64,000 nt of DNA. Source: Nitrososphaerota archaeon. GTDB lineage: Archaea > Thermoproteota > Nitrososphaeria > Nitrososphaerales > UBA183. The translations under genes and the position numbers were made by a program. Positions 40,096 through 42,492 of the stretch are shown here, piece by piece. The stretch's first letter is position 1. Each line of letters opens with the position of its first letter. Location of the stretch: the NCBI GenBank assembly GCA_027386095.1, contig DAHXUN010000007.1:1-64000 (forward strand), given 5' to 3'. The notes beneath the pieces are model-generated. The model was given only the letters and a program-made list of their open reading frames with translations. It searched no databases and was not told where the DNA came from.

Positions 40096-40384
40096 GAATA
40101 TTCCCAGCCTCGCGCGTAACCAGCGTCGACTCGGGCTGCATCCCAGGCCATCGGCAGAGCCGACAGCGAGAGAGCTGAGACTGTTCTGGTGCGGGTCGCT
40201 GTTATCTTAGCTTGACTCTTGTTGCTGACAAAGAGCGAATATTCTTTTGACCACTGCATCGTCCTGCGGAAAGCGCGTGAGTTTCCCGAAGTCGCGACCC
40301 TCTGGGTCGGTCTACTGAAAGATGACACCGGGTGGAGCGTGCTTGAGCCCAAAGATGATATCTGCCCGCGGCCCCGGCCTTGGC

Positions 40385-40837
40385 ATGGCCGAATCTGCGG
40401 TTCACAGATCTATGAAGGCCATAGTCAGGCGGGAGCTCGAGCGCGAGCGCTTCGCGGTGGTGGAGGAGCCGGTCGTCCCTCCAGGTCGCAGGGTGTCCTG
40501 GACCGCCTATCGTCCGGATCTTCTCGGATATAGGTCGGAGGGCGGGAAGGAGGAGGTCGTCCTCGTGGAATGTGAGACGCGCCCCCTGATGCGCAGGCTC
40601 GAAGCCAAGAAGTGCTCGACGGTGTGGTTTCAGCCGCGCGTCTATCGGGGCGGGTCCGTCAGGAAGATACTCGCCGTGCCGCAGGGCAGGCTCCATCGGG
40701 TCGACATGAGAATCAGGCGCAGCTGGGACATCTGGGTCCTCGGCCGAGACGCGACCATGGCGAAGTTTCCGGCCGTTCAGGAGAGTGCCGCCTGCGAGCC
40801 ACGTTTCTCAAAATCGATAATCGAAGCAAGCGATTAA
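40385..40837 (+). CDS. Putative PD-(D/E)XK-fold nuclease-like protein
   Basis: 150 residues from ATG 40385. MKAIVRRELERERFAVVEEP is an N-terminal helix and strand. YRPDLLGYRS followed by EEVVLVECETRP gives the D...ExE pattern of PD-(D/E)XK restriction-like folds, then VWFQPRVYRGG and RKILAVPQGRLHRVD. The catalytic Lys is not obvious (C-E in its place), so the enzyme may be atypical or inactive. Ends directly before the TATA box of the structured RNA at 40862. Confidence 0.6.
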   Translation: MAESAVHRSMKAIVRRELERERFAVVEEPVVPPGRRVSWTAYRPDLLGYRSEGGKEEVVLVECETRPLMRRLEAKKCSTVWFQPRVYRGGSVRKILAVPQGRLHRVDMRIRRSWDIWVLGRDATMAKFPAVQESAACEPRFSKSIIEASD

Positions 40838-40840
40838 TAT
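40832..40840 (+). promoter_or_regulatory. TATA box for the structured RNA
   Basis: GATTAATAT lies about 25-27 bp upstream of 40862, where the closing helix of the structured RNA begins. Its position overlaps the end of the nuclease-like gene. Confidence 0.6.
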
Positions 40841-40861
40841 GCGTCGTGTGTTTAACAAACC

Positions 40862-41084
40862 ACTCGTCCGGCCAGGAGAAGGATGGATTCGCGGAGAAGA
40901 AGAGGTGCCGGGGAAAGCCTCGGCGCCTGGTACCATCCGCGAGCGGGATGGTGGCGCGTAGAGCCGGGGAAACCCGGACTTCAACGAAGGCCAAACCGAG
41001 GGCGAACCGGGACGGCGGCGGTGAAGGAACGCTACGAAGCCGCCGTCGGAGGAAAGCCACATCCCTCCTGAGAGCCGGGCGAGG
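40862..41084 (+). ncRNA. Candidate novel structured RNA, ~223 nt
   Basis: The ends pair: 40863-40872 (CTCGTCCGGC) with 41074-41083 (GCCGGGCGAG), 10 bp with one U-G, and 40873-40878 with 41065-41070 (6 bp). Inside are hairpin A 40903-40928 (11 bp, two G-U, AAAG loop), hairpin B 40932-40952 (7 bp), hairpin C 40964-40977 (5 bp with a GAAA tetraloop), and hairpin D 41011-41019/41039-41047 (9 bp, 19-nt loop). A TATA box sits ~26 bp upstream. G-U pairs favour the + strand. No SRP helix-8, RNase P or tRNA motif is seen. Could be an independent RNA or a leader of the downstream PRTase gene. Confidence 0.6.
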
Positions 41085-41130
41085 CAACCAAATATCAGCC
41101 GGTTCTCACCTCTAGCGGGGGACTTCGGAG

Positions 41131-41775
41131 ATGCTCTACAAGGACCGGGCGGACGCAGGAAAGCGCCTCGCGGGGGCCCTCCTGCATCTCAGGGGCGAGG
41201 ACTTGGTCGTGCTCGGGATACCGAGGGGAGGCGTGGTGGTGGCGAACGAAGTTGCCAAGACGCTGGACGCCCCGCTGGACGTCGTGGTGACCAAGAAGAT
41301 TGAAGCGCCAGGGGAACCAGAGTATGCCCTCGGAGCGGTCACCCAGGAAGGAGAAGTGATGATGGACAGGCAGGCTGCGGAGTCCTTGGGGGCCAGTGCG
41401 GCGTACCTTGACTACCAGATTCGACTCAAGCGGGAAGAGGTGAAGGACAGGATGCAGAAGCTGCGGGGGTCAGCCCCCTACCCTAGACTGGAAGGCAAGG
41501 TGGTGGTCATAGTGGACGATGGCATAGCCACCGGGAGTTCGGTGAGCGCGGCCGTGATGTCGGTGAAGAAGCGGGGCCCGAAGGATGTCATCGTCGCGGT
41601 TCCGGTGGCGCCGGCGGACGCGGTGCAGGCCCTCTCCGAAGACGGAACCAAGGTCGTCTGTGTTTCGACCCCAGGACCGTTCCTGGCCATAGGGGAGTTC
41701 TATGAAGACTTCGGGCAGGTTGAGGACATCGAAGTGAAGAGAATCCTTGACGAAAACGCTGCAAGGCGCCGCTGA
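41131..41775 (+). CDS. Phosphoribosyltransferase-domain protein
   Basis: 214 residues. The PRPP-binding loop VVVIVDDGIATGSS (about 124-137) is clear, as is the N-terminal LGIPRGGVVVANEVAK. KKIEAPGEPEYALGAVTQEG and the PFLAIGEFYEDFGQV end match a widespread family of PRTases of unknown substrate. A TATA-like CAAATATCA at 41089-41097 could give its own transcript; otherwise it follows the structured RNA. Confidence 0.85.
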   Translation: MLYKDRADAGKRLAGALLHLRGEDLVVLGIPRGGVVVANEVAKTLDAPLDVVVTKKIEAPGEPEYALGAVTQEGEVMMDRQAAESLGASAAYLDYQIRLKREEVKDRMQKLRGSAPYPRLEGKVVVIVDDGIATGSSVSAAVMSVKKRGPKDVIVAVPVAPADAVQALSEDGTKVVCVSTPGPFLAIGEFYEDFGQVEDIEVKRILDENAARRR

Positions 41776-41817: not shown

Positions 41818-42492
41818 TTGGACGTCCGCAAGTTCGAGGGCGACCTCTACGAGCTCGCCGGCAGGGCCTGCCACGTCGACACCGAAGAAGTAAGATCCAA
41901 GGTGTTTGCCATCGCCGACGTCCTGGTCAACCTTTACAAAAAGAACCTCGTGAAGATCAACCATTCGGCCCTGGAGTTGGTGTGCGCCAGGGGCCTGATA
42001 AAGCAAGGCTACGATGTGAAAGTAGAGCACAGGCTGGACAAGATCCTGGTCTGCGATGTGATGGGGTCGAGGGGGGACGGGCCCCTCATAGTCGAGATAG
42101 AGACCGGGTTCATACCGCCCGAAGCGGCCCTGGAACCTTCGGCGTATGCGCGGAGCCGGATTGCCAGCAAGATATCCAGGTACAGCAGGTATGCGGGGAA
42201 GTTCGCCCTGGGGACAACTCCCTCGTACATTCTGGACATCCCCGGGTTCTTCATCGGGGCTCCACGGAACAGGACCCACGAAGAGGCCGCACGGATCAAA
42301 GAGCTCACCGACGTCGCCTACAACAAGCCCGAGATCTCCATAGACGACCTTATGCAGGCGAGGCTTCACGCCGTGTTTCTGATAGATGTCGACTCCGGGG
42401 GTGTACAGGAAATCGACCCCGAGGCCTACGATAGGATGGCGCTGGCCGTCCTGGATTGGCGCCGGAGTGTCCAAGGCTTAAATCCGCGCTGA
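41818..42492 (+). CDS. Putative nuclease-fold protein, unknown function
   Basis: 224 residues, TTG start. Begins with a helical region (YELAGRACHVDTEEVRSKVF). GYDVKVEHRLDKILVCDVMG then GPLIVEIETGF has a D...ExE spacing like PD-(D/E)XK folds. ARSRIASKISRYSRYAGKFA and the C-terminal LMQARLHAVFLIDVDSGG complete it. No firm family. Placed between the PRTase and the pyr operon. Confidence 0.6.
   Translation: MDVRKFEGDLYELAGRACHVDTEEVRSKVFAIADVLVNLYKKNLVKINHSALELVCARGLIKQGYDVKVEHRLDKILVCDVMGSRGDGPLIVEIETGFIPPEAALEPSAYARSRIASKISRYSRYAGKFALGTTPSYILDIPGFFIGAPRNRTHEEAARIKELTDVAYNKPEISIDDLMQARLHAVFLIDVDSGGVQEIDPEAYDRMALAVLDWRRSVQGLNPR

Follow-up and report, generated by a model that had tools for sequence, protein, structure and literature searches.

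A structured, probably stand-alone RNA of the Nitrososphaeria that is absent from Rfam 15

What does the short stretch at 40862-41084 encode, in a window of 64,000 nt (the whole stretch of DNA that was analysed, the start of a contig from a Nitrososphaerota archaeon)? An earlier note, made from the sequence of the window, had proposed a structured RNA of about 223 nt. The fold agrees with this proposal: the 223 nt of the + strand have a minimum free energy (MFE) of -128 kcal/mol, compared with -89.9 +/- 4.6 in shuffles (z -8.3), and none of 200 dinucleotide shuffles was equally stable, whereas the reverse strand reaches z -3.7. Homologues add strong compensatory change, and the locus is very probably a real RNA gene of a new family absent from Rfam 15.

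The consensus consists of a stalk, with P1 (10 bp), a 3-nt bulge, P2 and a further 5-bp helix after P2, and then of three arms (Table 1). The 10-bp closing helix that had been proposed from the single sequence stands at every pair. Its extension has the proposed 6 bp in the MFE fold of the window's own sequence, but 5 bp in the consensus, and the GAAA tetraloop is present in this genome but not conserved in alignment A3 (see below). Where four hairpins had been described, the consensus shows three arms, hairpin I being made of an inner and an outer stem.

Table 1. Features of the RNA locus, in positions of the window.
Feature	Position	Strand	Basis or remark
Structured RNA gene	40859..41087	+	covariance-model limits; RNA proper about 40862-41084
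TATA-like box TTAATAT	40834..40840	+	sequence; 23-29 nt before closing helix; position recurs in relatives
P1 5' strand, 10-bp closing helix	40863..40872	+	10/10 pairs double-changed, 94.7% of cells paired
P2 5' strand	40873..40877	+	partner 41066-41070; 87.6% of cells paired
Helix 3 5' strand	40881..40885	+	partner 41060-41064; weak, 71.4% of cells paired
Hairpin I	40888..40943	+	4-nt RAAG-type apical loop at 40914-40917
Hairpin II	40944..40998	+	GAAA cap at 40969-40972 in this genome; loop not conserved
Hairpin III	41001..41058	+	base GGC(NAA)CC / GG(AAA)GCC
3-nt A-R-N bulge, between P2 and P1, 3' strand	41071..41073	+	3 nt in 50/50 A7 relatives
P1 3' strand	41074..41083	+	closing helix

Alignment A3 holds 16 of the 17 sequences found by DNA search, aligned with MAFFT (G026, cut by a contig end, was dropped), whereas A4, A5 and A7 were fitted to covariance models, which favours the structure. 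On the 16 rows of A3, RNAalifold returned 73 pairs, 21 of them changed on both sides. The 1164 pair cells of A3 with letters on both sides divide into 980 Watson-Crick, 126 G-U and 58 unpaired cells; these counts fit a reading on the + strand, which the earlier note had seen marked by G-U pairs. On A4 (35 rows, 33 distinct), 90.6% of cells are paired, 59 of the 73 pairs are double-changed and covariation scores 0.612. A7, with 50 relatives, has 88.7% of 3376 cells paired and 66 of 73 pairs double-changed, and its covariation of 0.682 compares with a mean of 0.233 in 500 shuffles and a maximum of 0.110 with slid partners. Homologues without covariation had been named in advance as the result that would speak against an RNA, and the homologues found are strongly compensatory. 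The weakest helices of A7 are helix 3 of the stalk and helices 9 (66.7% of cells) and 14 (74.4%), both inside arms.

Covariation also appears outside the model, in an extension of hairpin II (columns 116-285 and 117-284) and in a possible mini-stem of hairpin I; among the remaining top long-range pairs outside the model, some had no Watson-Crick support. On the 5' side of hairpin I, A7 columns 47-56 hold a short self-complementary stretch in several families, for example CAGAUCUG or CAGGCCUG, which could possibly form a mini-stem or a dimer contact. The window's own RNA sequence contains three open frames. The RNA is nonetheless not coding, because single-base indels are frequent, and in 8 of the 16 rows of A3 neither strand is open in any frame.

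The near-invariant bases outside helices lie in short loops and bulges. The longest conserved stretch is the base of hairpin III, which forms a 3x3 A-rich internal loop and is followed by ACAU. In the apical loop of hairpin I, AAG is near-invariant, and pair 40912-40919, next to the pair that closes this loop, is G-C in all 50 relatives of A7. The first position of the stalk bulge is A in 50/50 of them, and the loop opposite has an A in 49/50. A divergent type from family f10, and likewise f25, keeps P1 and the tip of hairpin I but differs at the base of hairpin III. Genus g45 carries two very different types of the RNA, the canonical one and another in which the base of hairpin III is remodelled (L094-L097, L103, L207-L209, L221, L223).

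The TATA box that had been noticed ahead of the closing helix was found again at a recurring spacing in relatives. With a weight table for the TATA consensus, averaged over 50 loci, the score has its maximum at -27 to -25, counted from where the match begins, and a second, lower peak lies at -11 to -8. The best TATA site within -60..-11 falls at -32..-24 in 27 of the 50 loci, where a uniform spread would give 9, and TTTT occurs within the last 4 and next 12 nt in 25 of the 50, against 9% of windows further downstream; the 50 loci include close relatives, so that the counts are not independent. From these signals I read the RNA as a probable transcription unit of its own, which would start about at the closing helix and end just past it. 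In several families (loci L081, L082, L083, L085) an inverted repeat resembling TTCTCAA...GAGAA stands about 40-60 nt before the RNA, upstream of the TATA box, and by eye no such repeat was seen ahead of SRP or RNase P genes. It is a possible regulator site. A genome-wide pattern for TTCTCAA-GAGAA, which has one spacer base too many and misses the sites seen by eye, gave 9 matches in 2 of 7 genomes; these bear on the idea in neither direction.

The RNA belongs to an old family of the Nitrososphaeria (Thaumarchaeota), which is missing from Rfam 15. Of 61 genomes searched at the DNA level, 17 matched at E < 1e-5, the window's own genome counted, and 48 had a match of some kind at E up to 1, most of these short. 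Covariance model R1 found matches in 40 of 300 order genomes, spread over 13 of 64 genera, and R2, built from 26 members, matched 65 of the 300, in 19 genera. Among 398 genomes drawn from the whole phylum, 15 matched R2, ten within the order and five outside it, three of the latter at E < 1e-12 (E-values of model matches are rough). Two other orders of the phylum gave full-length covariance-model matches; the order of G503 was matched in 4 of 44 genomes, one in part only, and that of G316 in 1 of 8. Model R3 represents the divergent type and was built on six members, all from a single genus of f10; it found matches in 27 of 200 f10 genomes, and 26 of these belong to g45. A pattern scan of GTDB contigs yielded 59 loci, of which R1 confirmed 38, all archaeal by title, and none of the 21 titled as bacterial; some of the confirmed contigs are called simply 'archaeon', and the more specific names are Nitrosocaldus, Nitrosopolaris, Nitrososphaeraceae, Nitrososphaerales, Nitrososphaeria, Nitrososphaerota, Nitrosopumilales (L163) or Thaumarchaeota. 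Four viral contigs also matched the pattern, with a best model E of 0.25. As a guess, I take f1 to be group 1.1c, f10 the Nitrosopumilaceae, g45 Nitrosotalea-like and g39 Nitrosocosmicus-like.

Within this range the distribution is patchy: under strict filters 235 of the 300 genomes of the order have no R2 match, and 173 of the 200 f10 genomes have no R3 match. The RNA is therefore either dispensable in such genomes or too diverged there. Some genomes hold several copies by R2, with six in G179 and three in G231. The two G096 copies, whose neighbours match, may reflect a duplication in the assembly.

Is it a known RNA in disguise? At gathering scores, Rfam 15 matches the window just once, at 1-143, where an archaeal RNase P RNA is present with its 3' part. 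At E up to 10 the region 40700-41250 gave a single hit (E 4.3), which falls outside the RNA, at 40710-40765. ARAGORN found no tRNA or tmRNA in the window. The RNA has no match to the tRNA model (RF00005) or to curated H/ACA or C/D guide families, and it does not reach the gathering score of RF01857 (archaeal SRP RNA) or RF00373 (archaeal RNase P RNA). The earlier note's failure to place it among SRP RNA, RNase P RNA, tRNA or guides thus holds against Rfam 15 too. Rfam holds only some archaeal guide RNAs. At eleven loci with relatives, the Rfam matches were confined to one SRP RNA and one tRNA, which lie next to the RNA of L086; the same two came up (at L070) in a permissive scan of eighteen small loci. 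A lncRNA model also matched inside the L070 RNA at E 3.9, scoring 21 bits where the gathering score is 80, which I take to be chance.

The known RNAs were also found elsewhere in the same genomes. SRP RNA is separate in 11 of 11 genomes tested (10 over the cut-off), and a full RNase P RNA is separate in 7 of 8, the eighth, the window's own, being broken by contig ends. Positions 1-143 of the window correspond to positions 147-288 of the RNase P RNA model and the end of contig C11 to 12-264, so that the gene of this genome is apparently split by an assembly break. In 6 of 7 relatives a whole RNase P RNA lies on the same strand, 28-75 kb from the new RNA, and in G052 the two are on different contigs. 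Identity with SRP RNA was rejected, SRP RNA being separate in the same genomes. Kinship with RNase P or MRP RNA was rejected likewise, since each of the eight genomes has a separate RNase P RNA and there was no Rfam match. Archaeal SRP RNA (RF01857) is likewise the product of a gene for a stable, structured RNA of comparable size whose ends pair, but the new RNA has no match to the SRP model. Its conserved A-rich strands loosely resemble those of archaeal RNase P RNA (RF00373), but it has no match to that model either. Literature searches in an open-access library turned up no description of it. Stand-alone structured RNA as a general kind is already known.

Close to the RNA lies a second conserved element, c0, a 224-aa protein encoded at 41818-42492 (+) and present in 162 of 300 genomes of the order. 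It adjoins the RNA or sits within about 1.4 kb of it in f1, f2, f3, f7 and f9, in f8 (G087, G212) and in f10 (G228, G243). In genus g1, c0 is found in 14 of 15 RNA-bearing genomes and in 0 of 16 without the RNA; the exception, G026, has its RNA at a contig end. Outside g1 the link looks looser, and G035 and G052, for example, carry the RNA without a c0 match. Across the order, c0 is present in 104 of 235 genomes without an R2 match and missing from 7 of 65 with one, counts that assume the same 300 genomes in both surveys. As a protein partner of the RNA c0 was dropped, being frequent without the RNA and missing from some genomes that have it. In 20 c0 regions with no RNA match there (L232-L251, from f4, f8, f9, f10, f13 and f14), R2 matched one, L246, at E 1e-6 and 1.3 kb from c0, as in G087; the genome of another, G169, carries the RNA elsewhere. 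These regions may reflect either loss of the RNA or its divergence. I take the proximity in seven families as evidence of an ancestral linkage, not of function.

The predicted fold of c0 (best model pLDDT 90.8) is weakly like PD-(D/E)XK nucleases, with a best Foldseek value of 1.3e-3 and TM of at most about 0.5. There was no Foldseek match below 1e-3, no PDB sequence match and no Pfam or NCBIfam match over the cut-off. Directly upstream of the RNA is a 171-aa ORF without a family match (40322-40837, +), whose motif PDLLGYR...VVLVECET by eye resembles DVxG...LIVEIETG of c0.

The RNA is most likely stable, protein-bound and trans-acting. Apparent transcription on its own, ends that pair, neighbours that change, and short loops and bulges that hold the conserved bases speak for a protein-bound RNA acting in trans, and against a leader or an antisense RNA. 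An independently transcribed structured RNA of about 225 nt, acting in trans, would be kept stable by its paired ends and would serve as a ribonucleoprotein scaffold, with partner proteins gripping the A-rich internal loop, the RAAG loop and the A-R-N bulge. To this scaffold mechanism alone I give somewhat less than an even chance. OLE-type orphan RNAs are similarly stand-alone and widespread, with a function not obvious from neighbours, but the new RNA is archaeal and about 225 nt long, and is not known to have a motif in common with them.

Other readings would give the RNA a different role. It could be a riboswitch or 5' leader of the phosphoribosyltransferase gene (PF00156) that follows at 41131-41775, and such an ORF does start 170-272 nt past the start of the RNA in the window and at four f1 loci (L083, L108, L112, L114). 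I take the window's three ORFs after c0 to be pyrE, pyrD and pyrF. Other families, however, have unrelated or convergent genes after the RNA. In f13 its neighbours are, judging from their sequences, probably carB and a preceding gene taken for carA, and in f10 presumably folD and purD. The kind of gene downstream is not constant, and the T-tract after the RNA in half of the loci also speaks against a leader, which is very improbable. Since its neighbours differ between families, the RNA does not serve any one gene as a leader; it neither leads the gene that follows nor works by long antisense pairing. About equally improbable is a diverged SRP, RNase P, H/ACA, C/D or tRNA missed by the Rfam models. 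GAGGGCNAACC and GGAAAGCCACAU are loosely like CR-II and CR-I of RNase P RNA, and an ACA follows hairpin III, but SRP and RNase P RNAs lie elsewhere, no model in the permissive scans matched the RNA at E < 1, and the conserved loop at the base of hairpin III does not vary as an H/ACA guide pocket does. Multiple copies in G179 and G231 would suit the RNA of a mobile element (retron, omega RNA, bridge RNA or intron), but five f8 loci (L098-L102, three of them G179 copies) share no gene cluster, and c0 recurs close to the RNA in members of seven families, which indicates vertical descent; a mobile element is extremely doubtful.

A rival of another kind concerns the stalk, which would be cut at a relaxed bulge-helix-bulge (BHB) by the tRNA-splicing endonuclease, with RtcB closing a circle and P1 serving as a processing stem only. 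A BHB, as described in PMC4731332, has a 4-bp helix at its centre and at least one 3-nt bulge beside it, and the same paper reports the SRP RNA of Thermoproteus tenax to be circularized via one. PMC12918454 reports circular 23S rRNA in Nitrososphaeria and EndA and RtcB in every genome searched there. Like the circular T. tenax RNA, the new RNA has a terminal stem, a BHB-like bulge and helix, and an enclosed structured RNA; unlike it, it is not an SRP RNA, and its circularization is a hypothesis. On the model-fitted alignment a 4-bp stalk helix (pairs formed in 44/49, 50/50, 47/50 and 40/50 relatives) lies beside the constant A-R-N bulge of the 3' strand, the other strand has an asymmetric loop, and P1 varies in sequence while covarying at all 10 pairs, as expected of a processing stem. 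Against this, the second bulge is not clean, with 3 nt in the 5' loop in just 28/50 and 1-2 nt opposite in 48/50, the fitting itself favours a constant bulge length, and a constant 10-bp P1 is unnecessary for processing. The reading presumes a BHB geometry as to the side of the helix on which each bulge lies, and no intron-bearing tRNA turned up as a control in the 51 loci scanned. I consider processing of this kind unlikely. The fullest version, in which a new archaeal class of ribonucleoprotein RNA, ancestral to the ammonia-oxidizing Thaumarchaeota and their kin, would be excised and circularized by EndA and RtcB via the stalk bulge, with up to six copies in one Nitrososphaeraceae genome and undetected in most of f10, is distinctly unlikely as a whole.

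Structured stand-alone RNAs that extend across many families of an archaeal order and stand in no RNA library appear to be rare. This one is present in nitrifying archaea, with covariation strong enough to fix its fold, and its occurrence in named lineages such as Nitrosocaldus and the Nitrososphaeraceae makes its expression, processing and partners directly testable. Close relatives in which it is absent, or diverged past detection, provide natural comparisons. Kept across many groups of ammonia-oxidizing and related archaea and matching no family of Rfam 15, the RNA appears to be an overlooked cellular part.
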